A stretch of 64,000 bases of DNA, taken from contig NW_024104621.1 in NCBI RefSeq assembly GCF_003945595.2, positions 372,001 to 436,000 of the forward strand, written 5' to 3'. Made by a program: the position numbers and the translations under genes. Positions within the stretch are counted from its first letter, which is position 1; each line of letters opens with the position of its first letter. The notes below the pieces were generated by a model, which made no database searches, was not told the origin of the DNA, and saw nothing but the letters and a program-made list of their open reading frames with translations. Source of the stretch: Pipra filicauda (Eukaryota > Chordata > Aves > Passeriformes > Pipridae). Positions 10,321-58,100 of the stretch are shown in pieces.

Positions 10321-10798
10321 TGTCGCTGGGTATCCGTCGAAAGGTCTCGGTTTCAAAGGGGGAAGAAGGACAGACGACACACACAAGGATGGTGAGACAA
10401 AGAGATGTCTGCCTGCTCAGAGCAGCAGGCAGCCTTTTATTAGGTTTTCCTACCTCTACTTTCTCACACACATAACACAAACATCTTTCTACAAAAATAC
10501 TAAGGAATGTGCACCTGCACACAGCTCAAGGCTGTGTCCATGGGGATTATCTGGTTGGCTTCACTGCTCCCATGAAAAACGGCCTAACACTCCACAATAC
10601 TCCAAAGTCCTCAGACTTCAGCTGGTGGGGCTGTGACTTCCCCCCACATCGTGCCGTCCAACTCTCAGGGCCGCTTCCATGGGAATATGCAGCCACCTCC
10701 ACCTTTCTCAGGGGAACGGTCTTACTCCCCTCAATGCCTCCAGCTCTTCCGCTTTCAGGGGGCCCAGGGGTTCCATGGGCCTGCCATCTCCCCCCACA
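10321..10798 (-). mobile_element. Nested solo LTR in reverse orientation inside gag
   Basis: A 478-bp TG...CA insert flanked by a perfect 6-bp target duplication GGAGGC (10315-10320 and 10799-10804). On the - strand it has a poly(A) signal (CCTAATAAAAGGC near 10440) followed by an R/U5-like region. Removing the insert and one duplication copy restores the gag phase on both sides, so gag was still open here when it landed. A 6-bp duplication is the ERV-K rule. Confidence 0.88.
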
Positions 10799-11353
10799 GG
10801 AGGCCTTTAAAAAGGTTGCTGATGCATATGTCCAAACACCCTCCTTCACCCTAATTCATCAGGGCTCAACAGAACCTTTTGTGGACTTTATAACCCGGCT
10901 AAGGGAAGCTATAGCACGGCAAGTCCAGCAAAAGGAAAGCCAAGACATCCTGTTTAATAAACTTGTGATTGAAAAAGCTAACAAGGATTGCCAACAAGCC
11001 TTAAAAATGCTGAAAGATCCCACAGTTCTGGAGATGATAGAAGCGTGTAAGAATGTGGGGTCTGATTCTCACAAAGCAAGGTTAATAGCCGATGCCCTAG
11101 CCGGGCCACAAACCTGTTTTCACTGTGGTGAGACAGGACATATAAAAAAGAACTGCCCACAATTAATTACAAAGACAGAGCTTCCAAAGACGCCGTGCAA
11201 ACGGTGCGGAAAAGGCAGACACTGGACAAAAGATTGCGGGTCTCTTACTAACATCTACGGAGAACTGCTGCCCCCGAAAAAGTCACCTGACTTAAGGAGA
11301 AAAGTGACTTTTAATTCAATGCCAGATCTTAGACAGTGCGACTGTGAGCTGTC

Positions 11354-11360
11354 GGGAAAC
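11354..11360 (+). promoter_or_regulatory. gag-pro -1 frameshift heptamer GGGAAAC
   Basis: G GGA AAC lies in gag phase (codons GGA at 11355, AAC at 11358). The -1 frame downstream is open into the protease region and gag ends about 110 nt later. This heptamer is a classical betaretroviral slippery site. Confidence 0.8.
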
Positions 11361-12160
11361 GGGGAGACCAGCGCTCGGGGTGGCGCTATGACACCAACAC
11401 CCCCACAGCTGCGCTCCATCCTTCACAGCCCGTCCTTTCAGCAAGTGCCAGCGAACCACAACAATTAGAGTGGATTATATTAGGCCTACCATTCCCTACA
11501 GTCCGATTTAAATATGATGAGCAGATTATGCCAGTGGTGCCCTTCCCATGTTACCCTGACCCTGAATTAGACCCAAATGAAACATATTTGGTCATCTCAC
11601 ACCTGGCAGCATGCGAAAAAGGAATTACAATATTACCAACATTACTAACTGGACTTAACAAACATAACATTTTTATTTGTATTTTTGCCTCTCTCCCACC
11701 TATAGAAGTCGACTGTTTTCCAGTGGCAAAGATGATTTCGATAACTGCTCTGGTGAATCTCATGTCACGAGATGAGGAGCTCGGAGTCAGCGATGAACTA
11801 CAAGTCAATTGGACAACAGTTGTGCAAGCAGAGAGGCCATTTCTAACATGCTCTGTTTACCTTTCAGGATCTCGTAGTCCACAGAAAACTACTGTTAGAG
11901 GCCTTTTGGACACCGGGGCTGATATTGCGATAATCGCTTCCTGGGACTGGCCTCCCAACTGGCCAGCCCACAGTACTAACATCAAAGTTACTGGTGTGGG
12001 TGGCTCACAACAGCCAGTCCAAAGCTTGGAAGTAGTTACCATCCACGGGCTGGAGGGCAGATGTGCAATTCTCCGACCATTCATACTGAACGTGCCGGTG
12101 ATGTTATGGGGACGAGATGCCATGGAGCAGTGGCATATCGGACTGCAAACAAATTTTTAG
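11361..12160 (+). pseudogene. pro frame of ERV-K-like provirus (dUTPase-like region plus protease)
   Basis: Frame -1 to gag, open from the slippery site to TAG at 12158-12160. The C-terminal half is an aspartic protease: catalytic LLDTGADIAII at about 11906, flap-like region GVGGSQQPVQ, and MLWGRDAM near the end. The N-terminal half has dUTPase-like length and spacing, as in betaretroviral pro genes, but I see no clear dUTPase catalytic motif, so that part is only an inference. Processing enzyme of Gag and Pol. The frame itself is undamaged, although the provirus is dead. Confidence 0.75.
12151..12157 (+). promoter_or_regulatory. pro-pol -1 frameshift heptamer AAATTTT
   Basis: A AAT TTT in pro phase, immediately followed by the pro stop TAG. 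The -1 frame is open and enters reverse transcriptase. It fits the X XXY YYZ rule for -1 slippage. Confidence 0.6.
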
Positions 12161-12618
12161 GGAGGGTCACTGAGTGCTTGCAGCTACCCAAACTGACTTG
12201 GAAAACGGAGTTTCTGGTCTGGGTAAATCAGTGGCCCTTGCCTAACCAAAAGCTACAAATTTTAAATGAATTGGTTGATCGGGAATTGGCAAAAGGACAC
12301 CTGGAGCCTTCCACCAGTCCCTGGAACACTCCAGCGTTTGTCATCCAAAAATCCTCAGGATCCTGGAGGCTTCTCCAGGACCTGCGCAAGGTAAACGAAG
12401 TCCTGGAACTCAGGGGAGCCCTACAGCAAGGTATGCCATCCCCATCTATGCTACCTGCTGAATGGCCCATGGTTGTTGTTGATATCAAGGACTGTTTCTT
12501 TCACATTTTTCTTAATTCGAGAGATTCGGCTAAGTTTGCATTTTCTGTCCCAGTGATTAATGTTTGTGAACCTCACCGCAGGTTCCAGTGGCGAGTGCTT
12601 CCTCAGGGGACGAAAACT
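12155..12618 (+). pseudogene. pol of ERV-K-like provirus, N-terminal reverse transcriptase only
   Basis: RT fingers and the start of the palm: WVNQWPLPNQK, LEPSTSPWNTPAFVIQK and motif A with the first catalytic Asp in VVVDIKDCFF, then QWRVLPQG. Immediately after this the sequence changes to rDNA spacer, so the second catalytic block, RNase H and integrase are missing. The frame is intact up to the break. Confidence 0.85.
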
Positions 12619-13084: not shown

Positions 13085-14065
13085 GTAGACCTGGTGACCC
13101 CCCCGGGCACAGCGGGAAGCGGATGAGCCTCGGCGCCCTCGGGCACGCCTGGGCGGTGCCGTCCACACCGCCGTGCGTGCAGGTGTGGCGCTGGGGGCCG
13201 GTTCTCCCCGTTCCTAGGTGAGGCGGGTAGACCTGTTCCCGGCGAGGGGACTTAGAGCCTGAGTGCCGCGGCTCGGCGGCGGGTAGACCTGTTGCCGGCG
13301 GGGAGCCTTAGAGCGTGAGCGCTGCGGCTTGGCCCGGCGGCAAGCAGACGTGGTCTCTGAGCCCTGTAGGTAGAGCTCTTGTCCAGGTCCGGCAGCTAGA
13401 GCTGGTCCGAAGGCTCGGCGAGGGCCCTCGGCGGGTGCCGAAGCGCTGCCATTTCCGGCCGGTGCTCTGAGCGTGGCACCGAATTCACAGAGCGAGCAGA
13501 CGGCGTGCAAGTGCTAAATCCGCCGATTGGCGCGCCGGCGTGCCCTTCCGGACCTGCCCTGACCTCCCTGATTTCCCCCAGTTCTTAGCGAGTCCTTCCA
13601 GCAGGCATGCTCCGTTGAGTACTCTCTCGAGGGGCTTGCTGTGGAGACTCCATCTCCCATGGCCCTTTGTGGCAGACTTCCTCTCCGGTGTTAAGGCTTC
13701 CCCCTGCCCTGAGGGTGAAAGAAGAGACGTTTCCTGTGGGGCGGGGAAACAGGGGGAGTAACTTGGACTCTGCCTAAGGTGGCATGGCTGTGGCCGCCTC
13801 GGCTCGGCTGCAGAGGTGCGCAGCGGGTAGAGTTGTCGTCTGTGCCCAGCGGGTAGACCTCTTGTCCAAACCCAGCGGGTAGACCTGGTTTCCCAGGGCA
13901 GCGGGTAGACCTGCTCTCCGGGCTCATCGGCTAGACCCGCTCTCCGAGTTGGGCGGCTAGAGCGGGCGCCGAGGCACTGTGCTCTCTGCCTGGGGCTCCG
14001 AGTGGGAAAGAAATGGCATTGTCTGCAGTGCGGGTAAAGAGGGGGAGTAGCTCGGACTCTCTTAA
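13085..14065 (+). repeat. rDNA intergenic spacer subrepeats
   Basis: Imperfect 26-29 bp units with core GCGGGTAGACCTGGTGTCCG, interleaved with longer segments derived from 28S. R2-site-like motifs occur at 13743-13782 and 14032-14065. The latter is directly followed by an R2 element. Related arrays are at 16068-16745 and 59118-60545. Confidence 0.75.
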
Positions 14066-15768
14066 ACAATCAGATCCAATTCAAATTAAAGTGGGTGTTA
14101 AACAAGGGGACCCTATGTCTCCATTGCTATTTAATCTGGCTATGGATCCTTTATTATGTGAATTGGAACAGTATGGAGAAGGGTTCCAGTATAGAAATAA
14201 ATCGATTACTGCAATGGCTTTGCCGATGATTTGGTCTTACTTAGTGGAGCCTGGGAAGGCATGAAAAAGAACATCAAGATTCTTGAGACATTTTGTGATC
14301 TAACCGGTCTTAAGATGCAAGGGGAAAAATGCCATGGTTTTCTCATAAAGCCTACTAGAGATGCATATACAATCAATGATTGTCCCTCATGGATTATAGG
14401 TGGTTTGTCCTCAATATGGTTTGTCCGGGTAGCTCTGAGAAATATCTTGGCGTTCAGATTGATCCTTGGGTACAAATAGCTAAACTGGATTTGTCATCGA
14501 AAATAGAAACATGGTTAAGCCGCATTAGTGAAGCACCACTCAAACCATTACAAAGAGTGGACATGTTAAAAACATATGCGATCCCTCGAATAATATATTT
14601 AGCAGGTCATACAGAGATAAAAGCTGGATTTTTGGAAGCCCTAGATTTAAAGATTAGGGCGACGGTTAAGAAATGGTTACATCTACCGGCCAGCACTTGT
14701 GATGCCATCCTATATTCCAGCATAAAGGATGGTGGGTTAGGTATTACAAAATTACAAGCCTTGATCCCAAGTGTACAAGCCAGAAGGTTGCCTAGGCTGG
14801 CACAATGTTCTGATGACACCTTAAGGGCGGTTTTGCTGGAAGAAAACATCACGCAGATATATGAGAAACTGTGGATAACAGCTGGAGGAGATAAAGATAA
14901 AATACCCGATATCTGGGCACCCAAACTAATGCTGGAAACATCAACTCTGGGTGAGGAAGACACATCAGAATGGGAGAGTAACATACCAAAGAACAGTTAC
15001 CCACGGCCTTGTAATTGGAAGAAAAGGGAATTCCAGAAATGGACTCAATTACAGTCCCAAGGTATTGGGATTACTAATTTTGAAGGAGGCACGATTAGTA
15101 ACAACCGGATTAAGAACTATCGTGGTATACCCCATCGGAAACTCCTGACAGCTCTACAGTTGAGGGTGAATGTTTATCCCACTAGAGAATATTTGGCTAG
15201 AGGGAAGAAAGACGGTTACATCGGGTCCTGTAGACATTGTCAAGCCAGGAATGAATCCTGTGCCCATATCATCGGACAATGCCCAATCGTCAAAGACGCT
15301 AGGATCAGATGTCATAATTACATCTGCAATATGCTCGCTGAGGAAGTGAAAAAGAAAGATTGGATGGTCTATCAGGAACCTAATATAAGAGATACAGATG
15401 GGGAACTGTTTAAACCCAACCTCATTTTTGTGAAAGAGAAACAGGCACTCATCGTGGATGTGACAATAAGGTATGAAGCGGACGACACCATGTTTGAAAA
15501 AGCAGCAAAAGAGAAAGTGAGAAAATATAGACATTTGGAGAAGGAGATCAAGGAATTAACTAATACTGATAAAGTCATTTTCATGGGCTTTCCCCTTGGA
15601 GCAAGGGGTAAGTGGTACAATAAAAATTTTGATCTTTTGCAGACTCTGGGTCTATCAGCCTCAAAGTGGGAAAGGACAACCCGAGCTTTAGCATCCAGAG
15701 CTCTCCTCACCTCTGTTGACATCATACATATATTTGCAAGTAAAAGTTCCACACAGCTTTGTAAGTAG
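14066..15768 (+). pseudogene. R2 ORF fragment: RT C-half and restriction-like endonuclease
   Basis: Site-specific non-LTR reverse transcriptase/endonuclease that uses target-primed reverse transcription. The catalytic FADDL is present at 14219-14233 but one base is missing just before it, putting motif and upstream sequence in different frames. From 14380 to the stop at 15766-15768 a single frame of 462 codons holds the thumb, the CCHC knuckle CRHCQARNESCAHIIGQC, and the PD-(D/E)xK-like endonuclease core (KPNLIFVKEKQALIVDVTIR). It lacks the N-terminal zinc fingers and RT fingers, so it cannot retrotranspose by itself. Confidence 0.87.
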
Positions 15769-19369: not shown

Positions 19370-19478
19370 TTCTTGGTTGATCCTGCCAGTAGCATATGCT
19401 TGTCTCAAAGCTTAAGCCATGCATGTCTAAGTACACATGGGTGGTACAGTGAAACTGCGAAAGGCTCATTAAATCAGT
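19370..19478 (+). pseudogene. 18S rRNA 5' fragment (about 110 nt)
   Basis: Matches the universal 18S start ggttgatcctgccagtagc and continues to ctcattaaatcagt, then stops. Differs from the conserved sequence at several sites (for example caaagcttaag and gcgaaaggctc). The neighbouring base is already STAG3 exon on the opposite strand. Confidence 0.9.
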
Positions 19479-19608
19479 GCTTCCAGTTTTTCTGTGCCCC
19501 TCCTTCCCAATTCCTTGGCCTTTTCTGCCTCCAGGTGCATCTGGTTGTTCTCCTGCTGGACGTGGACGCCCAAGGCCACGTCCACCAGCGCCGTCATCAG
19601 CTTCAGGG
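19479..19608 (-). pseudogene. STAG3: STAG3 exon cut by the 18S junction
   Basis: Starts after acceptor CACCAG at 19608 with CCCTGAAGCTGATGACG and reads ALKLMTALVDVALGVH, then QQENNQMHLEAEKAK. It ends at GTEKLEAL where the + strand 18S fragment begins; a splice donor is not reached. Confidence 0.85.
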
Positions 19609-19619
19609 CTGGTGAAAAT

Positions 19620-21750
19620 CCTGGATAATGGTGTGGAAAGGGGCGAAAAGAGGGAAAAATCGGGGGGAAATGGGGTGGGATGGGGGGAAAATGGCGGGAA
19701 AGTGGAATTTGGGTGGGAGAAAATGGAGGATTCTGAGGGAAAAGTGGGGGGAAATGGTGGGAAAATGGGATTTGGGTGGGAGAAAATGGACAGTTCTGAG
19801 GGAAAACTGGGGAGAAATGGGAAAAACCAGGTCTGGGATGAGGGAAAATTGGGAGAAAAAAGAATTTGGGTGAGAGAAAATGAAGGATTCTGAGGGAAAA
19901 CTGGGGGAAAATGGCGGGTAAACAGGATTTGGGTGAGAGAAAATGGAGGATTCTGTGGGAAAACTGGGGAGAAATGGGGGGGAATGGGATTTGGGTGGGA
20001 GAAAATTGAGGATTCTGAGGCAAAAGTGAAGGAAAACTGGGGGAAAAGGGATTTGGGCGGGAGAAAATGGAGGGTTCTGAGGGGAAACTGGGGGAAAATG
20101 GCAGGAAAACAGGATTTGGGAGGAAGAAAACAGAGGATTCTGAGAAAAAACTGGGGGAAAATGGTGGAAAAACAGTATTTGGGTGAAAGAAAATGGAGAG
20201 TTCTGAGGGAAAAGTTGGGGGAAATGGTGGGAAAACGGGATTTGGGTGGAAAAAATGGAGGATTCTTAGGGAAAAGTGAGGGAAAACTGGGGGAAAGGGG
20301 ACTTAGGTGGGGCAAAATGAAGGACTCTGAACAAAAACTGAGGGAAAACAGGGGGAAAACAGGATTTGGGTGGGAGAAAAAACAGGATTTGGGTGGGGAA
20401 AACGGGGGGAAAACAGGATTTGGGAGGGTTCTGGGGGAAAACGGCGGGAAAATGGAGGGAAAACAGGTCTGGGATGAGAGAAAATGGGAGAGAAAAGGGG
20501 ATTTGGGTGGGAGAAAATGGAGGATTCTGAGGGAAAAGTGAGGGAAAACTGGAGGAAAAGGGATGTGGGTGTGAGAAAATGGAGGGTTCTGAGGGAAAAC
20601 TGAGGGGAAATGGCGTGAAAAGGGATTTGGGCGGGAGAAAATGGAGGATTCTGAGGGAAAACTGGGGGAAAATGGCGGGAAAACAGGATCTGGGTGGGAG
20701 AAAATGAAGGATTCTGAGGGAAAAGTGAGGGAAAATGGGGGAAAAGGGATTTGGGCGGGAGAAAATGGTGGATTCCGAAGGAAAACTGTGGGGAAATGGG
20801 AAAAACCAGGTCTGGGATAAGGGAAAATGGGGAGAAAAGGGGATTTGGGTGGGAGAAAACAGAGGATTCTGAGGGAAAACTGGGGGGAAATGGTGGGAAA
20901 ACAGGATTTGGGTGGAAGAAAATGGAGAGTTCTGAGGGAAAAGTGGGGGAAAATGGGGGGAAAACGCGATTTGGGCAGGAGAAAATGGAGGGTTCTGAGG
21001 GAAAACTGGGGGAAAATGGTAGGAAAACAGGTCTTGGATGAGGGAAAATGGAGAGAAAAGGGGATTTGGGTAGGAGAAAATGGAGCATTCTGAGGGAAAA
21101 CTGGGGGAAAAGGGATTTGGGTGAGAGAAAATGGAGAGTTCTGAGGGAAAAGTGGCGGAAAATGGTGGGAAAAGGGGATTTGGGTGGGAGAAAATGGAGG
21201 GTTCTGAGGGAAAAGTGGGGGGAAATGGCGGGAAAACAGGTCTGGGATAAGGGAAAATGGGGAGAAAAGGGGATTTGGGTGGGAGAAAATGGAGGATTCT
21301 GAGGGAAAACTGGGGAGAAATAGGAAAAACCAGGTCTGGGATGATGGAAAATGGGGAGAAAAGGGGATTTGGGTGGGAGAAAATGGAGGGTTCTGAGAGA
21401 AAATTAGGCGTAAATCAGGAAAAAATATGGGAATATAGATTCAGGATAAGGGAAAATGCAGGCAAACAGAATTGGGATGGACAAAATGGAGGATTCTGAG
21501 GGAAAACTGGGGGAAAATGGCGGTAAAAAGGGGTGGGATGGGGGAAAATGGGGAAAATGGGATTTGGGTTGGAGAAAATGGATGATTCTTAGGGAAAATT
21601 GGCAGAAAATGGGCAAAAAGTGGACTAGGATGAAAGAAAATGGTGGCAAAACAGGATCTGGGTGGGAAAAAATGGAAGATTCTGAGGGAAAACTGGAAGA
21701 AAATGGGCAAAAAGAGGACTGGGATGAGGGAAAAAGGGGTCCCTGAGGTT
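19620..21750. repeat. Intronic minisatellite, about 64-bp unit
   Basis: About 2.1 kb of units around ATTTGGGTGGGAGAAAATGG followed by AGGATTCTGAGGGAAAACTG and GGGGAAAATGGCGGG. Lies in a STAG3 intron. Long open frames on both strands are produced by the repeat and have no family resemblance. Confidence 0.85.
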
Positions 21751-21801
21751 CCTATCCCCCCTCTGGAATCCCCGGGATCATCCCTAGGGATCCATCCCTA
21801 C

Positions 21802-22006
21802 CTGCCAAGGTGCTGGTGTGGCGGAACGCCCAGACTTGGGAATCCGAGAGCCCGGTGAGGAAGGAAATCCAGGAATCCATGAGGAATCCGTCATAAATGA
21901 CATTGTACTGGCACCTCCACACCACCGTGGCCACCAGCTCCGAGAATCCCGCCTGGAATCGGCACCAGGGCCGGGAACTCATGGATAACGGGTATTCCGG
22001 GGAATC
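21802..22006 (-). pseudogene. STAG3: STAG3 exon (SA conserved region)
   Basis: 205-nt exon, acceptor CCCCCCAG at its upstream edge and donor GTAGGG downstream. Encodes [14 protein letters not shown] and [16 protein letters not shown], then [15 protein letters not shown], one of the best conserved blocks of the SA/STAG family. Confidence 0.9.
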
Positions 22007-22165
22007 CTGGGGGGGTTGGAGGAGGCAAATCCCCAAAAAAATCCCTTAAAAATCCTCCAATATGCACCAAAAATCCCTTAAAAAATCCCCTCAAAATCCC
22101 TTAAAAATCCCCTAAAAATCCCTTAAAAATCCCATTCCTGGCCTTTGGAAGCCCCCCTGAGGCAC

Positions 22166-22242
22166 CTCCTTGAACTTCTCTGTGAGCTATTGGATGATCT
22201 GGGAATTCTGCAGCTCCCGGAACATCTCCGGGGTCACCACAC
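22166..22242 (-). pseudogene. STAG3: STAG3 exon carrying an in-frame TAG
   Basis: 77-nt exon after acceptor CCCACAG. Reads GVVTPEMFRELQNSQIIQ, then TAG (22189-22187), then LTEKFKE. The donor is GTGCCT, a weak match. Exon phase matches both neighbours, so the stop is not a phasing error on my part; a base-calling error or true nonsense mutation remain possible. Confidence 0.82.
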
Positions 22243-22299
22243 CTGTGGGGGATTCCCAATCCCTGTTTTCCAGCTGTTTTCCTTCCATCCCAAACCCAG

Positions 22300-23100
22300 A
22301 ATCCTCCAATTCCTCCAAACCCACTTTGGTTTTCTCCCATTTTCCTCATCCTGTCCCCTTTTCCTTCATCCCAACCCCAGAATCCTTAATTTTCCCACAT
22401 CCCAACCCTCTTTTCCCTCATCCCACACCCCAAATCCTCTTTGTTCCCTCCATTCCATTTTTCTCCCCATTTCCCCCATCCCAACCCCCAAATCCCTGAT
22501 TTTCCTCTATCCCAACCCTCTTTTCCCTCATCCCACTCCCAAAATCCTTTTTTTCCTCCATCCCACTCCATTTCCCCCCTTTCCCCCCATCCCAACCCCA
22601 AAATCCTTAATTTTCCCACATCCCAACCCTCTTTTCCCTCATCCTACATCTCAAATCCTCTTTTTTCCCTCCATCCCACCGCATTTCTCCCCTTCTTTCC
22701 CATCCCAAACCCAGAATCCTTGACTTTCGTCCATCCCAACCCTCTTTTCCCTCATCCCACACCCCAAAATCCCACATTTCCCCCCATCCCACCTCATTTT
22801 TCTCCCCTTCTTCCCCATCCCAACACCAAAATCCTTAATTTTCCTCCATCCCAACCCTCTTTTCCCTCATCTCACACCCCAAATCCTCTTTTTTCCCTCC
22901 ATCCCACCCTATTTCCCCCCTTCTTCCCCATCCCACCCCAGAATCCTTAATTTTCCCACATCCCAACCCTCTTTTCCCTCATCCCACACCCCAAATCCTC
23001 TTTTTACCCCCATCCCACCCCATTTCCCCCCATCCCAATCCCCTTTTCCCCCATTTCCCTCCCTTTTTCCCTCATCCCAACTCCCCATTTTCCTCCCATC
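22300..23100. repeat. Intronic minisatellite, about 115-bp unit
   Basis: Six to seven pyrimidine-rich units containing CCCAACCCTCTTTTCCCTCA followed by TCCCACACCCCAAATCCTC. In a STAG3 intron; no coding signal. Confidence 0.75.
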
Positions 23101-23161
23101 CCGCCCATTTTAGGGGTCTCCCCAACCCAAAGTTTGGGAAGGACCCCCCCCAAAAACCCAC

Positions 23162-23627
23162 CTCTGCACCCGCAAGCCCTGATGATGAAGTTGAGCAGCT
23201 CCAACAATCCCGATTCCCAATCCTGTTTGTACAATTCCAGCCACTCATCCACCAACGTCTGCCAGGAATTCGGAATCGTTGAGACCCCCCTCCTTAATTT
23301 TAGGGACCCCCCCCCTCTAATTTTAGGGATCCCCCTCTTAATTTTAGGGCACCTCCACCACTGCTTTTCCCAACAAAACAGCCTGGAAAAGGGAATTCTC
23401 CTCCGGGTTCGTCTCGATCCCATTGGAACGCCAGGAGTGCTTCAGGGTCTGCCAGAAAACTGGGATAAACTGGGGAAGGGGGTTGTAATTCCTGAAAAAC
23501 TCGGGATTTAAGGGGGAAAAAACAGGAATTACCGGCCCTTGGTTGGACCTCCGGGGGCGTCCACGTTTTTTCTGGGTGGGCAAAGTGGTCTTGAAGTTGC
23601 TGCCGGAGTCGGGATCCGACAGGAATT
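23162..23627 (-). pseudogene. STAG3: STAG3 exons 23627-23533, 23448-23353 and 23258-23162
   Basis: Three consecutive exons in phase. First: SDPDSGSNFKTTLPTQKKR and GRPRRSNQGP, donor GTAATT. Second: SWRSNGIETNPEENSLFQAV then LLGKAVVE, donor GTGCCC. Third: TLVDEWLELYKQDWESG then LLELLNFIIRACGCR, donor GTGGGT. The first exon has two adjacent acceptors (CACAG and CACAGAG); only the second keeps the phase with the ATG exon. Introns of 75-100 nt contain short CCTCCTTAATTTTAGGGAC repeats. Confidence 0.8.
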
Positions 23628-23845
23628 CTCTGTGGGAATGAGGGTGGGAAAAAAAAAAGGGGGTCCAGAGGGAGTTTTGGGGGGAGTTTTGGGGGGTTTT
23701 GGGACCCCCCTAAAAGCACTCACGGGGTGTGGGGGGATGGGGGGGGGCTGCCCTGGGCCCTTGATCCTGGAGTGGGGACAGAGGATCTGGAGGAGGATCC
23801 GGAGGTTCGGGAGGATCTGGAGGTTCCGGAGCTTTGGATCGGGGG

Positions 23846-24391
23846 TGTGCAAGTTTCGAGCTGGCTTCCTGCCAAGTCCCCCAAAACTCGACAACTTCCC
23901 GCCTCCCAGAGAGGGAAAAGAAAAAAAACCAAGCAGCCAAAGCTATAGCAAATATATATATATTTTACATATGAGACAGATACACAAAACGAGAATACCA
24001 CACACCAGGAGCACTTCCAGGGAAGGGGGGGGGAGGGAGAAGGGAGAAGGACAAAAAGGGGCAAGGACCGAACAAGTCAACCAGCCAACCAAAGGCAAAC
24101 TAGCAAAAATCTCACCACTTCCCTTCGAACAGGCAGGATGGCTAGACACGGCCCAAGGCTCTCCCCTCACGCGTGGCAGATAACAGCAGTCACTGTAGGC
24201 CTCAGCTCCAGATAAGCCAGACCGAGACAGGGACCCACCGTTCTCGAACCTCGCCGGAAAGGAAGAGAGAGAGATCCCTCCTGCTGGCTTTATTTATACC
24301 TCAAGTTACGTAAAGGAATCCGTGATCACTTTTCTAGTTCCTTCCTGGTTACAAGCTGGTCTCCAGGAAGGCCTAGAGTGAAACCACCACA
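23846..24391 (-). mobile_element. 3' LTR of the ERV-L provirus
   Basis: 546 bp, TG...CA on the - strand (TGTGGTGGTTTCACTC to CTTGCACA). Contains a TATA box (GTATAAATAAA around 24287-24298), absent from the other LTR. A run of TATATA and a G-rich stretch follow. Confidence 0.9.
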
Positions 24392-24721
24392 TTCTCCACC
24401 CCTTATTCCATACTATTTCTTTACGTAACACCTATGTCTCACGTTCGCCTACATCCCACGCATATATATACACATATACCTATATATATATATATATATA
24501 GTTCTTGTTGGTCTCTTGGCACAGTTGTCTCGTCGTTGGAAAATCAATACCGATGTCAGTTCAGTCCAGATCTTTGGTCTCCTCAGTCACAATTACAGTT
24601 CTGATTTATGGCTGTTTCATCACTGGACTGTCTCATCACCAGATACCAGCATCAGCTTAGTTCAGGTCTCTCTCTCATCTGGTGACTGGTTTCCTGTAAA
24701 AACACAACTTAGGACATACAA
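24392..24721 (-). other. ERV-L region between pol and 3' LTR
   Basis: About 330 bp with no env frame. Contains TATATA simple repeats near 24475-24500 and, next to the LTR, the polypurine tract candidate aaggggtggagaa (- strand). Short repeats of tcagttcagt/tctggtctc type occur at 24530-24690. Confidence 0.6.
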
Positions 24722-27700
24722 TTAGTTTTTCCCCAAGGCTAAATTTCCTTGAGGCACACACTGGATGACTCCATCCTTCCTCATTACCCACCACGTATGT
24801 CCTGGCCCTTGAGCAAAGACAATCCCACGAATGGGTTTGTCTTGGCCTGAGGCAGGGGTAACCCAAACAGCTTTCCCTAGCATTCCCCTCAAATGGATTG
24901 CTGGAACTTTATCTCCATCAACAATGTGAAGGGATTCTGCCTGTGCAGGGCCAGCTCGATTGACAGAACCCCTGGTGTTAACTAGCCAGGTAGCCTTGGC
25001 TAAGTTTTTGTCCCAGTTTTTATAAGTTCCTTCACCTAATGACTTTAGAGTGGTCTTCAATAGTCTGTTATATCTCTCAACCTTCCCAGCAGCTGGTGCA
25101 TGATAAGGAATGTGGTACACCCATTCGACACCATGTTCCCTTGCCCAAGTGGTGACTAATTTATTTTTGAAATGAGTCCCGTTGTCTGACTCAATACGTT
25201 CTGGGGTCCCATGTCTCCACAGGACTTGCTTTTCAAGGCCCAGAATAGTATTTTGGGCCGTTGCGTGGGGCACTGAAAAAGTCTCTAACCATCCCGTTGT
25301 TGCTTCCACCATGGTAAGTACATAGCACTTACCTTGGCGGGTCTATGGCAGTTTGATATAATCAACCTGCCATGCCTCTCCATATTGATACTTATCCCAT
25401 CGTCCACCATACCACAGGGGCTTCAGTCTTTTCGCCTGCTTAATAGCGGCACAATCATGGATAACTTCAGAAATGATATCCATGGTTAAATCCACCCCTC
25501 GGTCTTGTGCCCATCTGTGGGTGGCATCTCGGCCTTGATGACCAGAAGCATCATGGGCCCATCGAGCCAGAAACAGCTCTCCCTTCTGCTGCCAGTCTAG
25601 GTCTACTTGTGACACTCCTATCTGTGCAGCTCGGTCCGCTTCTTTGTTGTTATCGTGTTCTTCATTAGCTCGACTCTTGGACACATGGGCATCTACATGG
25701 TGGACTCTCACATTCAGACTCTTCGCTCTGGCAGCGATGTCCTGCCACAAATCAGCAGCCTAGATGGGTTTTCCTCCATGCCTCCAGTTCATCTTCTTCC
25801 ATCGGTCTAACCATCCCCATAGGGCATTGGCTATCATCCACGAGTCTGTGTAGAGGTAGAGTCTCGGCCAACCTTCTCGTTCGGCAATGTCCAGGGCCAA
25901 TTGGACGGCTTTGAGTTCCGCAAATTGACTCGACTCGCCTTGACCCTCAGCGGCTTCTGCCACTCGTCGGGTGGGACTCCAAACGGCTGCTTTCCACTTC
26001 CGGTTCCTTCCTACAATACGGCAAGAACCATCAGTGAAAAGGGCATAACGCCTTTCTTCATCTGGCAGCTGATCAAATGGTGGAGCTTCTTCGGTTCAGC
26101 TCACTGGCTCTTCTTCTTCTTCTGCCAGACTGAAGTTCCCACCTTCAGGCCAATTGGTTATGATTTCCAAAATGCCAGGGCGATTTGAGTTCCCGATTCG
26201 GACACGTTGCGTAATCAAAGCGATCCACTTGCTCCACGTGGCATCGGTGGCATGATGCGTAGGGGGTACCTTCCCTTTGAACATCCAGCTCAAGACTGGT
26301 AATCGGGGTGCCAGGAAGAGCTGTGCTTCGCTACCAATTACTTCTGAAGCTGCTCGTATACCTTCATACGCCGCTAAGATTTCCTTTTCCACAGGGGTGT
26401 AATTGGCCTCAGAACCTCTGTAGCTTCGGCTCCAGAAACCCAGTGGTCGCCCTCGCGTCTCGCCAGGCACCTTTTGCCAGAGGCTCCAGGAGGGACCTTT
26501 ATCTCCAGCTGCAGAGTAGAGTACATTCTTTACATCTGGTCCCGTTCTAACTGGTCCAAGAGCCACGGCATGTGCAATTTCTTGCTTGATCTGCCTGAAA
26601 GCTTGTTGTTGCTCAGGAACCCACTGGAAACTGTTCTTTTTATGGGTCACAAAGTGAAGAGGGCTCACAATCTGACTGTATTCTGGGATATGCATCCTCC
26701 AGAAACCTGTTGCTCCCAGAAAACCTTGGGTTTCTTTCTTGTTTGTGGGGGGAGCCATTGCTACAATCTTGTTGATTATGTCTGTTGGTATCTGGCGTCG
26801 TCCATCTTGCCATTTCACCCCTAGGAATTGGATCTCTCGGGCAGGTCCCTTGACTTTGCTCTTCTTGATAGCGAAACCGGCCTCGAGGAGAATCTGGATG
26901 ATCTTCTGTCCTTTTTTGAAAACTTCTTCTGCTGTATCTCCCCATACAATGATGTCATCGATGAACTGGATGTGTTCGGGAGCCTTACCCTTCTCTAGTG
27001 TGACCTGGATCAGTCCATGACAGATGGTTGGACTGTGTTTCCACCCCTGGGGCAGTTGATTCCAGGTGTATTGAACGCCCCTCCAGGTGAAAGCAAACTG
27101 TGGCCTGCACTCTGCCGCTAAAGGAATAGAGAAAAACGCGTTGGCTAGGTCGATGGTGGCGTACCACTTTGCTGTCTTGGACTCCAACTCGTATTGGAGC
27201 TCCAACATATCTGGCACGGCAGCACTCAACGGTGGCGTAACTTCATTTAAGCCACGATAGTCCACAGTCAGTCTCCACTCTCCATCAGATTTACGCACAG
27301 GCCAGATCGGGCTGTTGAAGGGTGAATGGGTTCTGCTGACCACCCCTTGACTCTCCAACTTTCGGATCATTTTGTGGATAGGGATCACAGCATCTCGGTT
27401 TGTCCGATACTGTCGTCTGTGTACAGTTGTTGTGGCTATTGGCACTTCTTGATCTTTAACTCGCAGTAGTCCTACAATGGAAGGGTCTTCTGAGAGGCCA
27501 GGAAGGGCAGACAATTTCTTGGACTCCTCTTCAATCACCGTGGCTACACCAAAAGCCCACCGGTACCCTTTTGGGTCCTTGAAGTATCCTCTTCTTAGGT
27601 AGTCCATACCAAGGATGCAAGGGGCTTCTGGCCCCGTCACAATGGGACGCTTTTCCCATTGGTCTCCCGTCAAGCTCATGTCCGCCTCTACTACTGACAA

Positions 27701-27751
27701 TTCTTGAGACCCTCCTGTCACTCCAGAAATAGTAACAGTCTCAGTACTCAT
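24722..27751 (-). pseudogene. ERV-L pol: protease end, RT, RNase H, integrase; three in-frame stops
   Basis: One continuous frame on the - strand from ATG 27751 to 24722. Protease C-terminal end, then ERV-L-type RT (27.5-26.6 kb) with catalytic Asp in ATIDLANAFF and QFIDDIIVWG; tether; RNase H with LFTDGS near 26.05 kb, ELKA and YTDS; integrase with H-x4-H (WAHDASGHQ), a second zinc pair reduced to a single visible Cys, and a D,D-35-E triad (VDYIKL; SDNGTHF; GKVERY). Stops interrupt at about 26098 (TGA), 25760 (TAG) and 25343 (TAG); there is no frameshift. The product would make and insert viral DNA; the breaks make it inactive. Confidence 0.9.
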
Positions 27752-27772
27752 ACTCCGAAGGCATTACAGCAC

Positions 27773-27977
27773 AACGTCTCGCGCTCGGCGCGCGCGGTGA
27801 GAGCAGTCGTGCCCCGCAGCGCCCGCGCGCCGAAGTCCGTGCGGCAGCGCAGGTGGAGGTGCCGCATGAGGCAGCACGCGGGCGACGAGAACGAGCTCGG
27901 GTCCGCCATCGCTCGCGCGTCGTCTGCCCTCCCCGCACGCCCGCGAGCAGCACCGCGACCGCCCCACCCACCGCGGG
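27773..27977 (-). pseudogene. LTA4H: Captured host LTA4H 5'UTR and N-terminal coding sequence inside ERV-L
   Basis: On the - strand a GC-rich leader (27977-27910) leads to ATG at 27909 in good context. The frame reads MADPSSFSSPACCLMRHLHL, then RCRTDFGARALRGTTALTAR and AERETL, then leaves similarity and stops at TGA (27750-27748). HLHLRC, DF, and GT-ALT in this spacing are characteristic of the N-terminal domain of leukotriene A4 hydrolase, a zinc aminopeptidase/epoxide hydrolase making LTB4. Only about 45 residues are present, far short of the catalytic domain, so no enzyme is encoded. It stands exactly where gag is expected. RNPEP (aminopeptidase B) is the next candidate and fits less well. 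Base composition differs sharply from the flanking pol. Confidence 0.78.
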
Positions 27978-28034
27978 GCGTTCAGGTCGCAGTCTCCCTT
28001 GGAGGCGTGGGTTCGAATCCCACTCCTGACACCA
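27978..28034 (-). other. Extended primer binding site: 57-nt imprint of tRNA-Leu(CAG) 3' half
   Basis: On the + strand this reads as a tRNA 3' half: anticodon loop ttcaggt with CAG, variable arm, T arm gtgggttcgaatcccac, acceptor tcctgaca and CCA (28032-28034). It matches the standard vertebrate tRNA-Leu(CAG) from memory with one difference. A usual PBS covers only 18 nt. The 5' half of a tRNA is absent, so this is not a tRNA gene. Seven nt separate it from the LTR. Confidence 0.85.
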
Positions 28035-28041
28035 AAAATGT

Positions 28042-28391
28042 TGTGCAAGTTTCGAGCTGGCTTCCCGCCAAGTCCCCCAAAACTCGACAACAAGGACCCG
28101 CCTCCCAGAGAGGGAAAAGAAAAAAAACCAAGCAGCCAAAGTTATAGCAAAAAAAAAAATAAAATATATATATATATTTTACATATGAGACAGATACACA
28201 AAACGAGAATACCACACACCAGGAGCACTTCCAGGGAAGGGGGGGGAGGGAGAAGGGAGAAGGACAAAAAGGGGCAAGGACCGAACAAGTCAACCAGCCA
28301 ACTGAAGGCAAACTAGCAAAAATCTCACCACTTCCCTTCGAACAGGCAGGATGGCTAGACACGGCCCAAGGCCTAGAGTGAAACCACCACA
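28042..28391 (-). mobile_element. 5' LTR of the ERV-L provirus, promoter deleted
   Basis: 350 bp. Compared with the 3' LTR it lacks about 213 bp between two AAGGC direct repeats (24155-24159 and 24368-24372 in the other copy, fused at 28368-28372 here), removing the TATA region. It also carries small A-rich expansions. Confidence 0.88.
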
Positions 28392-28396
28392 GGGGG

Positions 28397-28421
28397 GAAC
28401 GTTGGGGGGCCATGGTTGGGG
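28397..28421 (-). pseudogene. STAG3: STAG3 start-codon exon, upstream piece separated by ERV-L
   Basis: After a pyrimidine-rich acceptor (CTCATTTTTCCAG) comes CCCCAACC and ATG at 28413-28411, in strong context (CAACCATGG). It encodes MAPQRSP before the provirus. Across the element, counting the GGGGG duplication once, the frame continues into RSKAPEPPDPPEPPDPPP at 23.84 kb. Confidence 0.75.
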
Positions 28422-28424
28422 CTG

Positions 28425-29040
28425 GAAAAATGAGAAGGGGTGTGTGTGAGGTTTGGGGGGTGAGATCCCCTAAATTTGTTCCTCTGGGGAAAATGGGGGG
28501 GAAGGGTTGAGACACCCCCTAAATTTTCCCCCTTGGAAAAACTGAGGGCTGGGACACCCAAATTTGCCTCCTTGGGATAATTGGGAGGGTTGGGACCCCC
28601 CAACCAACCCCCCAGGAGACAACTGGGGGCTTAGACCCCTCAAGCCCCCCCTCAACTCAGAGGGTGTTTAAAGCCCCCCCCGGCCCTCTCCTCAAATTTT
28701 GAGGGGTCAAACCCCACAAAAACTCCTCAAAATACCCCCAAAACCTCCCCAAACCCCCCTGGGGGGTGAAGCCCACTGGGGCCTCTCAGACCCTCCCAAA
28801 CCCCCTCAACTCACCCTCAGGGAGATTTTGAAATCCCCTCCTCACATTTAGGGGGATCAAACCCCCCAAAACACCCCCAAAAACCTCCCAAAACCCCTCT
28901 GGGGGGTGAAGCCTATTGGGGCCTCTCAGACCCTCCCAAATCCCCTCAACTGCCCCCAGCTCACCCTCAGGGGGATTTTGAAATCCCCTCCTCACCTTTA
29001 GGGAGGCCAAACACTCCCCAAAAATCCCCCAAACCGCCTC
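28425..29040. repeat. G/C-skewed tandem repeats in the presumed STAG3 first intron
   Basis: Includes a roughly 140-bp duplication sharing tggggcctctcagaccctcc (about 28778 and 28918) and simple cccccaaaa tracts. No coding signal. Confidence 0.6.
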
Positions 29041-29230
29041 AAAACACCCCCAAAACCGAGGTCATGTGACCTCCCCTCAGCACCGGCCTCGCTTCACGCT
29101 GAACGGGAAATGGTGCCAAACAGGTGCCGGAGCCTCGGGGGGCGGGGCCAAGGCCTGTCACGTGGGTTGAGGGGGCGGGGAATAGGTGTGACTTTGGCTC
29201 GGTCACGTGTACAGGTCCTAAAGGACGAGC
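29040..29230 (-). promoter_or_regulatory. CpG-rich candidate STAG3 promoter with two CACGTG E-boxes
   Basis: Compact interval with GTCACGTG at about 29158 and 29201, gggggcgggg GC boxes at 29134 and 29172, and gaggtcatgtgacctc palindrome near 29060. It lies just upstream of the STAG3 start-codon exon. Vertebrate germline genes are often controlled through CACGTG E-boxes bound by MGA/MAX complexes (knowledge). Assignment to STAG3 rests on position. Confidence 0.45.
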
Positions 29231-29234
29231 AGAG

Positions 29235-29640
29235 GGAGGGGCAGGGTGGTCCCTATAGACCCCCCAAAAATGGGGGTCCCCTCTGGATTAGGGGGGGCTT
29301 CTATGGATCAGGGGGGCTCCTACAGACTGGGGGCCCTATAGACACCTGTAAATGGGGGGTTGGAGAGTGGGGGTCCCCTATAGTCTGGGGGGGTCCCTAT
29401 AGGCCCCCAAAAATGGGGGTCCCCTATGGATTGGGGGGGCTCCTACAGACTGGGGGGGGCTATAGAGACCTGTAAATGGGGGCTGGAGAGTGGGGGGTCA
29501 CTATAGACCCCTATAAGTGTGTGTGTGGGTCACCTATAGATTGGAGGTCCCCTATGGATTGAAGAGGGGCTTCTATGGATTGGGGGGGTCTCTATAGAGC
29601 AGGGGTACCTATAGACCCCTATAGATAGGGTACCCCCAGC
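29235..29640. repeat. CCCCTATAGA / GGGGTCCC minisatellite
   Basis: Imperfect units of CCTATAGACCCCCAAAAATG and GGGGTCCCCTATGGATTGG. No gene. Confidence 0.65.
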
Positions 29641-29644
29641 CATA

Positions 29645-29895
29645 AATGGCCCTGGCCCCATTCCCAATCTCTATCCCATTCCCACTCCCAATCCTGATCC
29701 CGCTCCTGCCCCCGTTCCCATTCCCAGTCCCTGATCCCGATCCTGGTCCCTATCCAATTCCCACTCCCGCTCCCATTCCCATTCCACATCTCACTCCCAC
29801 TCCCGATCCCATTCCTGATCCCATTCTCATTCCTGATCCCATTCCCTTTCCATCCTACTCCCACTATCATTTCTGGTCCCATTCCCACTCCAAAG
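29645..29895. repeat. CCCATTCC short tandem repeat
   Basis: About 250 bp of CCCATTCC / CCGATCC / CCACTCC hexamer-to-octamer units; pyrimidine-rich + strand. Confidence 0.75.
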
Positions 29896-31795
29896 GTGCC
29901 AGCAGAGAAAACTGTTACTGCCCATAAAGTGCCCAGCCTGACCCACTAACTGCAACACAAAGCAAAAGCTTCTAGTTTTTCTTTCCTGGGGATAAGGGCT
30001 TTTGTTTAATGTTTTCAACCCTGCCTCCCAACTACCAGCCTGACTCCCAAAATTGCATACAAAGATTCCTCCCACAGCAAAGAAGCCATTACAGAAAGCT
30101 CTTGCTGCCCATGGAGTCCCTTGGGTGACAAAAAAACTGCAACACAGAGCCAAAGCTTCCAGTCTTCCTTTCCTGGGGATAAAGACTGTTTCCTGTTTTC
30201 AACCCTGCCTCCCAACTGCCAGCCCTACTCCCAAAATTGCATACAAAAAAAGATTCCTCCCAGAACAAAGGTGCCAGCACAGAAAGCTCTTACTGCCTAT
30301 AGAGTGCCCAGCCTGACCCACCAACTGCAACACAAAGCCAAAGCATCCAGGCTTTCTTTCCTGGGGATAAGGGCCGTTGTTTCCTGGTTTTTACCATGCC
30401 TTCAAAATGACAGCCCAAGTCCCAGAATTGCATACAAACAAAGATACCTCACAGACTAAATTTTCCAGCACAGAAAGCTCTTGCTGCTCATGGAGTGCCC
30501 AGCTTGGTCCACCAACTGAAACAAAAAGCAAAAGCTTCCAGGCATTCTTTTCTGGTCGTATGGGCTGTTCTTTCCTGTTTTCAGACCTACTTCCAAAATG
30601 CCAACCTGACTCCCATAATTGCACACAAACAAAGATTCCTCCCAGAGCAAAGGTGCCAGCACAGAAAGCTCTTGCTGCCCATGGAATGCCCAGGTTGACA
30701 CACCAACTGCACCACAAAAAGCAAAAGCTTCCAGGCTTTCTTTCCTGGGGATAAAGACTGTTGTTTCCTTTTTTCAGCCCTGCCTCCCAACTACTAGCCC
30801 GACTCCCAAAATTGCATACTAAAAAAGATTCCTCCCACAGCAAAGGTGCCAGCACAGAAGGCTCTTGCTGCTCATGTAGTGTCAAGGCTGGTCCACCAGT
30901 TGGACCACAAAACCAAAGATTCCAGGCTTTCTTTCCTGGGATAAGGGCTGTTTTTTGAGTTTTCAGACATGCCTACCAACTGTCAGCCCAACTCCCAAAA
31001 TTGCATACGGACGAATATTTCTCCCACAGCAAAGGTGCCAGCACAGAAAGCTCTTGCTGACTAATGGGGTGCCCAGCCTTGCCCAACAACTGAAACACAA
31101 AACCAAAGCTTCCAGGCTTTCTTTCTTGGTGATAAGGGCTGTTGTTTCCTGTTTTCAGCTGTGTCTGACAACTGCCAGCCCGACACTCAAAATTGCATAC
31201 GGATGAAGATTCCTCCCACGGCAAAGATGCCAACACAGAAAGCTTTTGCTGCCTATGGAGTCTCCAGGTTGACACACCAGCTGCACCACAAAGCCAAAGC
31301 TTCCAGGCTTTCTTTCCTGGGGAGAAGGGCTATTGTTTGCTTTTTTGGTCCCTGCCTCCCAACTGCCTGCCGCACTCCCAAAATTGCATACAAAGATTCC
31401 TCCTAGACTGAAAGTGCCAGTACAGAAAGCTCTTGCCACTCATGTAGTGTAGTGCCTAGGCTGGCCCACCAACTGCACCATGAAGCCAAAGCTACCAGTC
31501 TTCCTTTCCTGGGGAGATGGGCTGTTGTTTGCTTTTTTCAGCTCTGTGCTAAAACTGTTAGCCTGACTCCAAAAATTGCATATGGAGGAAGATTCCTCCC
31601 ATAACAAATATGCCAGGATAGAAAGCTTTTGCTACCCCTGGAGCACCTAGGCTGGCCCACAAAACCAAAGCTTCCAGACTTTGTTTGCTGGGGACAAGGG
31701 CTGTTGTTTGCTTTTTTCAACCCTTCACTTATTCTGCCTGCCTGAGTCCCAAAATCCCATATGGACGAACATTCCTCTCAGATCAAAGATGCCAG
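29896..31795. repeat. 190-bp satellite, about ten tandem copies
   Basis: Unit of about 190 bp containing CAAAATTGCATAC, GATTCCTCCCAGAGCAAAGG, TGCCAGCACAGAAAGCTCTT and CTTTCTTTCCTGGGGATAAG. Copies start near 30051, 30233, 30425, 30617, 30810, 31000, 31187, 31381, 31575 and 31755. Diverged copies recur at 49.05-50.40 kb. Frames of about 60-160 codons on both strands are by-products. Confidence 0.88.
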
Positions 31796-55112: not shown

Positions 55113-58100
55113 AAGGAGTATAGTTACTGACTGGGCTAAGTTGCAGAGGTCGCACCTCCCCGTGGTCCAGCTGGATGCCCTATATGGGTAATTAAGTTGA
55201 CCTCTGCCCCAGCTGGGAGGAGGGGTTACAATCTCTCCCTCCCTATCGTCTGGAGTCACTGCCCAGCAATAGTAATTTAAGAATAGTGATAAAATTTTTT
55301 GGTATTAACCTACAAAAGTTAATCACCCGGAGCCTTGCCCACGGGCTAAAGTTGGGCACAGGTTGACAGGTATTGAGGAGTACCGTTAACCTTGTCTTCC
55401 CTCACTTGGAAGGGAAGATAACGAACTACTTATCTTGACAAAATGGGTCGACTGCTAAGGCTAATGCCACTCAACTTAATGGCTAATGCCACTAAGGCTA
55501 ATGCCACTCAACGGTTACTCAAACCGATCCTAAGAATTGGAAACCTACCATTAAGCCAAATTAAATGAAACACCAACTCCCTTAAAAATAACATCAGATG
55601 AGATTGAATTGCAACAGCTAGAATTCGCTAGTTCTAATGAGATTGAGAACTGGCAGGCAATTCAATCTCTAAAAGAGGGAGATAATTTGGCACTATTTCC
55701 AGAACCTTATGAGTCATTAACACCTGTCTCAGTCAGAGGAAATGGGACCAAAATCTCTGACAATGACAATGAAAGCAACAGAGGTGAAGATGATTCATTT
55801 ACACTCGCAACCGAATCCATCTTATACTCCCAGGAAGACCAAATGCCAGAGGAAATACCACTGGTGAAATTACCGGACAAAAATCCATCTTCTCCGTGTT
55901 GTAAGATCAAAATATGGGGAGTACAGAGGCTTGTAGACCGCCTTCTTAGACTACATGGAAAAAGAAAGATCATTTTCCAATGTATTAAATGTGGTCTGCA
56001 AAGTGATAATTATTGCTCTACTCTCTGTCACTATCCATTGTGCAAGGTGCTAAGGAGGTGGTTATATCTGGAGATTGGATTTGTGAGGAGTGTAGGAGGA
56101 ACTTCCAATCAAAAAGTGGCCTGGGACAGCATAAAAGCCTGAGTCACCCAGAAATCAGAAACCAGGAAAGGATTGCTGCTGCTCGCCCTAGAACAGCTCG
56201 GGAATCATCTTGTAATGCTGGTCAAAAGACTATTGGAGAAACTGGTAAAAAACACGAGGGAGAGAGATATATTAATAAACTAATCACATTAATAAACATA
56301 TTCCATCTAAGACAATTAAACAAATCAGCGATAAAAGGCCGTATATGATTCCTGTACAAAAAGAAAGGGAAGATCAGGAAGTGTTTGTACAGGTAGAGAA
56401 AAGAAAGAAATATCTAACAAACGCAGAAACATTGAGCCCAGGTCAGTTGAGAGTACATTATATAGCAATGATTACAAAAGGGATAAAATCAAGAAAGATG
56501 AACAACTATCCGAGGGCATTCAATAAAATTGTTGAGGGGAGAACAGATATCCACGCAATAGTTAACAATGTAACAAAAGAATGGTATGGACACCTCGAGG
56601 TCAGCTGTTGGATAGATAAAACATCGAATATGAAACCAAAAATAGGCAAAACACAGGATACACAAAGTAAGAGAAAAGCAGCAAATTGGATGAGAACCAT
56701 AAAAACTTATGGTTAACTTATGGGAAAATACCGAACATGATATGGGGATGCCGAACTATATTGCTACCTAAATCAACTAAGCCAGACCGTCTCAATGACA
56801 TCAATAATTGGAGACCCATTACTGTCATGTCTGTAATTTTAAGGTTATTCTCAATGATATTGACGGCTAGGTTAGCAAAGGCGTGCCCCATAAAACCTAG
56901 ACAAAGGGGATTTATAAAATCGCAAGGCTGCTCTGAAAATTTAAAATTATTACATCTTCTTATAAAGACTGCAAAAGGAGAACGCAAAGGGCAGGAGTGG
57001 TGTTTGTTGACATCGCAAAGGCTTTGGACACAGTAAGCCATCAACATATTATCGCAGGCTTGAAACAAAAGGGTATAGATGCTCATATTATTAATTTGAT
57101 TGCAAATATGTACGAAAATATCTACACTCAAATTGGCACTAAAAATGAACAATCAGGTACAATTCAAATAAAAGTGGGAGTCGAACAAGGGGACCCTATA
57201 TCTCCATTGCTATTGGCTATGGACCCTTTATTATGTGAATTAGAACAGTATAGAAAAGGGTTCCATCATAGAAATAGCTCGATCACTGCAATGGTTTTTG
57301 CCAATGATCTGGTCTTACTTAGTGGATCCTGGGAAGGTATGAAAAAGAACACCGAGATTCTTGAGACATTTTGTGATCTAACCGGTCTTAAGACACAAGG
57401 GAAAAAATGTCACGTTTTTTTCATCAAACCTACAAGAGATGCATATACAATCAATGATTTTCCTTCATGGAATCTAGGTGGAACATTCCTCAATATGGTT
57501 TGTCCTGGTAGCTCTGAGAAATATCTGGGCCTACAGATTGATCCTTGGGTACATATAGCCAAGTCAGATTTGTCATCAAGAATAGAAACGTGGCTAAACC
57601 GCATTAGTGAAGCACCACTCAAACCACTACAGAGAGTGGACGTTTTAAAAACATATGGGATCCCTCAAATAATATATCTAGTAGAGACAAAAACTGGATT
57701 CTTGGAAGCCATAGATTTAAAGATTAGGGCAGCTATTAAGAAATGGTTACATCTACCGACCAACACTTGCGATACCATCCTATATTCCAGCATAAAGGAC
57801 GGTGGATTAGGTACTACAAAACTACAGGCACTGATCCCGAGTGTACAAGCCAGAAGGTTACATAGGCTGGCACAGTGCTCTGACGATACTTTAAGGTCTG
57901 TTTTGCAGGAAGAAAACATCACGCAGGTATATGAGAAATTGTGGATAACAGCTGGAAGAGACAAAGATAAGATACTGAATATCTGGGCACCCAAAGCAAT
58001 GGTGGAGCCATCTAATCTGGGTGAGGAAGATATATCAGAATGGAAAATAAGTACACCAAAAGCCATATACCCACAGCATTGTAACTGGAAGAAAATGGAA

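Follow-up and report, generated by a model that had tools for sequence, protein, structure and literature searches.

How the 5' end of a cellular gene comes to stand where gag is expected in an endogenous retrovirus (ERV) is the question raised by a 64,000-nt stretch of the genome of the bird Pipra filicauda (assembly GCF_003945595.2, contig NW_024104621.1, positions 372,001 to 436,000), referred to here as the window. The provirus concerned lies on the minus strand from window position 28391 to 23846 (4,546 nt), is flanked by CCCCC target-site copies and carries the 5' untranslated region (5'UTR) and N-terminal codons of leukotriene A4 hydrolase (LTA4H). The original prediction, made from the sequence alone, took this arrangement for a capture during reverse transcription, a reading now supported by the host exon, by the structure of related proviruses and by a joint with primer tRNA sequence. 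The provirus is likely, with a probability of about three in four, a defective ERV-L copy made in one abnormal reverse transcription that combined a jump to LTA4H with an overrun into the primer tRNA.

The assignment to ERV-L (class III), already proposed for this element, is supported by a foamy-like reverse transcriptase (RT), a primer-binding site (PBS) for tRNA-Leu, TG...CA long terminal repeats (LTRs) and a 5-bp duplication. The RT, RNase H and integrase core domains of pol score above the Pfam cut-off, and the best solved relatives of the 551-aa RT frame, among the best 60 of 205 matches, are Pr125Pol chains (E 1.1e-48), which we take to be of foamy virus; RT affinity is judged here from these nearest solved kin only. 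In mammalian ERV-L, a dUTPase domain follows the integrase. The end of the pol frame is separated from the 3' LTR by ~330 nt, inside which the ORF list holds no frame of at least 80 aa, and the provirus is without env, as befits an ERV-L. The protease remnant has no protease domain in Pfam and a single chance match among solved structures (E 1.9), and viral-contig scans return no relatives of either the provirus pol or the LTA4H peptide. Outside gaps, 322 of the 328 aligned positions are identical between the 5' and 3' LTRs, and the six differences would mean, at bird substitution rates, a fairly young provirus of some millions of years. The deletion that removed part of the 5' LTR is bounded by GCCTT repeats.

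Table 1. Features of the ERV-L provirus and its flanks in the window, in proviral order
Feature	Position	Strand	Remarks
Target-site copy, upstream side	28392..28396		5-bp CCCCC; within a C run, register uncertain
5' LTR	28042..28391	-	350 nt, TG...CA; U3/R lacks 213 bp, TATA box included
LTR-PBS linker	28035..28041	-	7 nt; same in relatives
PBS, tRNA-Leu	28017..28034	-	18 nt
Extra tRNA-Leu(CAG) complement	27978..28016	-	39 nt; covers T-arm, variable arm and anticodon; last base ~tRNA nt 29 by own count
LTA4H 5'UTR	27910..27977	-	68 nt; match to host exon 1
LTA4H exon 1, coding part	27767..27909	-	47 codons from ATG plus 2 nt; stops 4 nt before inferred splice donor
LTA4H/protease joint (putative template switch)	27766..27769	-	CTG at 27769-27767, in host exon and 20/27 relatives shown
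Second half of protease (by eye), RT, RNase H, integrase	24722..27766	-	Frame with three internal stops
Purine tract adjoining 3' LTR	24392..24403	-	By eye
3' LTR	23846..24391	-	546 nt; TATA box kept
Target-site copy, downstream side	23841..23845		5-bp CCCCC, in a C run

The surroundings of the provirus include exons of a cohesin STAG-type subunit (19472-23423, minus strand; STAG domain, SA-1-like), which lie downstream of it in the same direction, and the provirus may sit in or just before this gene. A strong base skew of opposite sign at 20000-21750 and 22250-23200 flanks a STAG exon. Domains of Gag p24, zinc knuckles and retroviral protease on the plus strand at 10476-12160 are what is left of another ERV, alongside which an RT match is noted at 12262-12615. 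Further RT domain remains on the plus strand, at 13935-15768 (below the Pfam cut-off) and 56937-58397, are of non-LTR retrotransposon type by eye, the former presumably R2-like.

The host segment of the provirus is real, as predicted, and consists of 211 nt of LTA4H exon 1; its limits are 27767-27977, not 27773-27977. The frame that opens with the ATG at 27909 reads as originally quoted and aligns with LTA4H starting at residue 1. It matches residues 1-47 of chain 4gaa (E 1.9e-7; named MGC78867 protein and presumably from Xenopus) and chain 5fwq, labelled human (E 4.7e-7), while the NCBIfam LTA4H model gives E 0.0052, well short of a whole-protein cut-off that a fragment cannot reach, and Pfam has no match to the captured frame. 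In the 1.08-Gb assembly, the two candidates scored for the segment (2/2; such match counts are lower bounds) are the provirus itself and C365:947182-947392. The latter is exon 1 of the real LTA4H gene: its frame matches the LTA4H N-terminus (E 5.5e-9; chain labelled human, 5.8e-9), and eight of the 16 matches of the NCBIfam LTA4H model in the assembly lie on C365, on one strand and in protein order, from 950530 to 962041, with one exon of this series matching LTA4H-type chains at E 7.3e-23. Exon 1 is missing from the 16 matches, and the remaining eight, on two other contigs, are presumably related peptidases. The host's own exon 1 is the source of the segment, with 200 of 211 positions identical; 192 of the first 200 agree, and the viral side of the joint could instead be the source of the last few positions. 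This identity, together with the protein-chain matches, rules out a chance resemblance to LTA4H. A search for further copies, also suggested at the outset, finds no second LTA4H-pol chimera among the same two scored candidates.

Ten of the 11 differences between host and provirus are C>T or G>A from host to provirus, a direction that fits the decay of a silenced CpG-island copy; six lie at CpG, and the segment has 40 CpGs in the provirus against 46 in the host exon. The CpG richness noticed earlier is borne out, as 27752-27977 has a G+C content of 0.748 and a CpG observed/expected ratio of 1.31, compared to 0.499 and 0.49 in pol. Seven of the differences are coding and change 5 of 47 residues relative to the host exon, so there is no hint of constraint on the captured frame, an incomplete ORF of 47 of the ~610 LTA4H residues with no mark of selection.

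The downstream joint is best read from relatives of the provirus. Of 171 candidates in the assembly for its viral part (27440-27766), 40 were scored, and 39 places besides the provirus itself match; 29 of these loci were examined, and the joint position is shown for 27, two (L023 and L024) being without the anchor motif. All 27 carry like viral sequence before the joint, with codons of the protease active site (by eye) just before the joint position, and none carries LTA4H. The base triplet right before the joint is CTG in 20 of the 27, CTT in six and GTG in one, and CTG is present in both host exon 1 and the provirus. This microsimilarity would fit a template switch, for which 3 nt alone are weak evidence. 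Host exon 1 extends 4 nt past the joint to an inferred GT splice donor, which excludes splicing at this donor as the origin of the joint. The capture stays within exon 1, and the exon-exon junctions sought in the segment are not there.

For the region upstream of the joint, 1,500 nt were compared with the matching piece of one relative, L034 (also designated L014). Of the 29 relatives, 26, L014 included, align to this gag-side piece over 1,493 nt or more, the exceptions being L007 (864 nt, limited by Ns), L032 (359 nt, internal deletion) and L033 (59 nt, truncated), and the window provirus aligns to it over 0 nt. LTA4H stands in place of the leader, the gag region and the first half of the protease, a stretch of 3,006 nt from PBS to joint in the one relative measured. 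The predicted absence of gag holds by position, and the loss extends to the leader and half of the protease, which had gone unmentioned. The gag region of L034 and L038 is filled by long ORFs; in L038, the one relative tested, Pfam recognises no gag domain (four weak matches, all below cut-off), and the label gag is used here by position and after the long ORFs of the relatives. L032 (C838:3332171-3335499) has its PBS joined near the protease; upstream of what is left of its LTR lies a tRNA-Leu(AAG) gene.

The upstream joint, missed in the original prediction, is the new and most informative part of the locus. The PBS continues directly into further tRNA complement, with no viral leader before LTA4H. 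Together, these 57 nt present on the plus strand (arms by eye) the CCA end, acceptor strand, T-arm, class II variable arm and a CAG anticodon loop, which identifies the tRNA as tRNA-Leu. Compared with a human-type tRNA-Leu(CAG) sequence, which ARAGORN types as Leu(CAG), 56 of the 57 positions agree. The one mismatch, and the absence of the genome's own tRNA-Leu(CAG) gene from the four matches to the stretch (4/4 candidates scored), speak against the explanation favored here. The base that follows the tRNA stretch is already LTA4H, one C being common to both. By comparison, in the U5-PBS region of all 13 relatives examined (L048-L060, from 14 with upstream pieces) the PBS is 18 nt long and one and the same viral leader comes next, which rules out the captured segment as the normal leader of this ERV-L family. 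Position 10 of the PBS is A in 10 and G in three of these 13, a split that would fit two tRNA-Leu species, with the CAA and CAG types assigned by eye. ARAGORN calls no tRNA anywhere in the window, the result to be expected when a tRNA is incomplete; Rfam detects none in 23000-30000 at E up to 1, and its best match to a 161-nt piece is the tRNA-like family mascRNA-menRNA (E 0.043, below the gathering score). A search of phage records matches a single phage, represented by two entries, and the match is at a tRNA-Met.

Overrun of the PBS into tRNA sequence is also found elsewhere in the genome. A pattern of the PBS plus seven further tRNA positions, with one mismatch allowed (reversed control, 0), has five matches in the assembly: the window provirus, one tRNA-Leu gene and three ERV-L copies. 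The tRNA-Leu gene (L067/L075) has an intron and is CAA-type by eye; ARAGORN run without its intron option reports no gene there. In the copy L066/L071 (C277:1509905, plus strand), the LTR is followed by 50 nt, 48 of which match the L067/L075 tRNA complement, to ~nt 37, and then by non-ERV DNA; no tested viral piece matches before its LTR. L073 (C828:454428, plus strand) has a more divergent LTR (~71%) and matches the tRNA complement at 33 of 35 positions, after which the sequence matches no tested viral piece. L068/L072 (C765:807752, minus strand) has ~7 to 9 nt of tRNA past the PBS, then gag-region sequence and pol; a longer tRNA tail in L068 is rejected, as the sequence beyond this point is gag region. 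Miscopying of a methylated A58 is expected to leave an A opposite that position. All three of these copies have A opposite tRNA A58, and the window provirus has the faithful T. The four overrun copies, three with A, suggest that fossil ERVs may preserve a record of how primer tRNAs were modified, and the fact that the deepest of the four overruns is the one without the wrong base suggests an unmodified primer.

What the assembly shows directly are the elements of the provirus, its two joints, the source exon in the host and the organization of the relatives; all of these can be accommodated in one round of replication. The minus-strand DNA would have copied viral RNA through pol into the protease and, just past the active-site codons, jumped via the common CTG to an LTA4H RNA that shared the particle. 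It would then have copied this RNA towards its 5' end, with the result that this strand had no gag, leader or PBS. The plus-strand DNA, starting from the purine tract, would have proceeded through the LTR and the linker into the primer tRNA-Leu(CAG), still attached at that point, and, not stopping after 18 nt at methylated A58, would have run past nt 37 to ~nt 29. As the minus strand was without a PBS complement, the tRNA end would have been joined to the LTA4H end instead, with at most 1 nt in common and without PBS homology. The product would have integrated with a 5-bp duplication, the promoter of the 5' LTR being lost later. The order of these steps, RNA (not DNA) as the source of the capture and a poorly modified primer are what we infer, the capture lying inside one exon with no spliced junction to prove an RNA source. 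The T opposite A58 in the window copy, against the three others, indicates that methylated A58 was absent or was read without error. Against a switch at CTG, seven of the 27 relatives shown are without CTG at the joint. Copying of the RNA to its cap is a candidate reading.

Known systems lend support to the overrun step. According to HIV-1 work reviewed in PMC13191261, plus-strand DNA normally stops after 18 primer nucleotides at methylated A58, minor products extend to nt 37, and a tRNA without modification is copied all the way to the 5' end. In mouse ERV-L, linker/PBS sequence is found after the 3' LTR in ~6.5% of complete proviruses, for which the authors suggest that the tRNA is removed inefficiently and that plus-strand DNA carries additional nucleotides past the PBS (PMC5930517). 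These PBS tails and the tRNA overrun in three other copies both favor the step proposed here. A broader suggestion, offered tentatively and with limited confidence, is that tRNA-primer overrun is a recurrent route by which ERV-L acquires foreign 5' ends and that hypomodification of the primer is a cause of capture. If so, a plus strand that passes A58 would fail in the second transfer and its end would join any nearby DNA end, the partners being host cDNA in the window provirus, gag in L068/L072 and the chromosome in L066 and L073.

Other histories can be written for the locus. The capture may have taken two steps, in which a lineage with a tRNA-extended PBS arose first and a later jump onto LTA4H RNA and back cost it the leader and gag. 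Copies with a tRNA extension do exist, including the L068/L072 provirus with gag-like sequence after its short extension; however, no leader lies between tRNA and LTA4H, so the second jump would have to land exactly at the end of the extension, and the 57-nt stretch followed by leader is absent from the four matches (4/4 scored) and the five pattern matches. Such a course appears unlikely. Less probable again is a chimeric host transcript, in which an ERV-L residing in LTA4H gave rise to an RNA that ran from the LTA4H promoter into pol, the primer coming from a normal genome. While this would account for a start in the 5'UTR and leave the plus-strand joint alone to explain, the provirus LTR, RT and integrase have no match in C365:945500-994600 (1.7 kb before and 47 kb after exon 1), and the joint falls 4 nt short of the inferred exon end. 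A spliced LTA4H-pol RNA is disfavored by the position of the joint before the inferred donor and by the lack of an ERV-L match in the same C365 interval.

The confinement of the captured piece to one exon means that DNA could have been its source, by insertion or gene conversion after an ordinary provirus had integrated; an assembly error is a further candidate at the DNA level. An origin of this kind is very improbable, since the replacement starts precisely at the end of a tRNA complement that is lacking in 13 of the 13 relatives examined and the LTRs and target-site copies frame the whole element. The single abnormal reverse transcription remains the preferred explanation.

The provirus today probably has no function, given the lack of a TATA box in the 5' LTR, the broken pol and an LTA4H frame that ends soon after the joint. 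The original prediction pointed to an overlap of the TGA of the LTA4H frame with an ATG of pol and considered termination-reinitiation conceivable. The overlap is present; its ATG occurs in none of the 27 relatives shown, and with the LTA4H frame not that of pol, three stops in pol and no TATA box in the 5' LTR, the idea of termination-reinitiation is not supported. A functional LTA4H-pol fusion protein is likewise without support, the two being out of frame, pol broken and the TATA box gone.

Ideas on how retroviruses capture genes are built largely on viruses that carry oncogenes and were selected for function. The acutely transducing retroviruses known from chicken and mammals have cellular sequence in place of viral genes and would need a helper to replicate. 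The provirus described here resembles these viruses in that viral genes are replaced by cellular sequence; it differs in encoding no complete host protein, in the present absence of the 5' LTR TATA box and in showing no sign of spread. Searches of open-access PMC texts found no report of LTA4H in a retrovirus or of a host gene joined to a tRNA-extended PBS, and the single paper they found to mention LTA4H, endogenous retrovirus and bird together is a melanoma review.

The closest counterparts differ from the locus in instructive ways. Crocodilian ERVs captured KIT-ligand and nectin3 mRNAs, with env lost in the nectin3 case (PMC4299795), and share with the window provirus host mRNA sequence within an ERV and the loss of a viral gene. 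The crocodilian elements keep long host ORFs, exist as several copies and are reported to be under purifying selection, whereas the present capture comprises 47 codons, has no second copy found and has 5 of 47 residues changed. LTR-mediated retrocopies formed by template switching are described from several animals, including chicken (Tan et al., as described in PMC5408686), and similarly join cellular RNA to LTR-element cDNA at a microsimilarity; by contrast, one joint of the provirus is attributed here to plus-strand overrun into the primer tRNA and not to a jump between RNAs. MuERV-L and experimental ERV-L insertions (PMC5930517) likewise have sequence beyond U5 and an LTR-PBS linker, but their tail meets chromosomal DNA, while the tail in the window provirus extends 39 nt past the PBS, lies on the 5' side and meets a host gene. 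Compared to these systems, the locus offers an unselected capture event in which both joints, the primer and the host source are all readable, and it would tie the acquisition of host sequence on the 5' side to a tRNA stop that failed.
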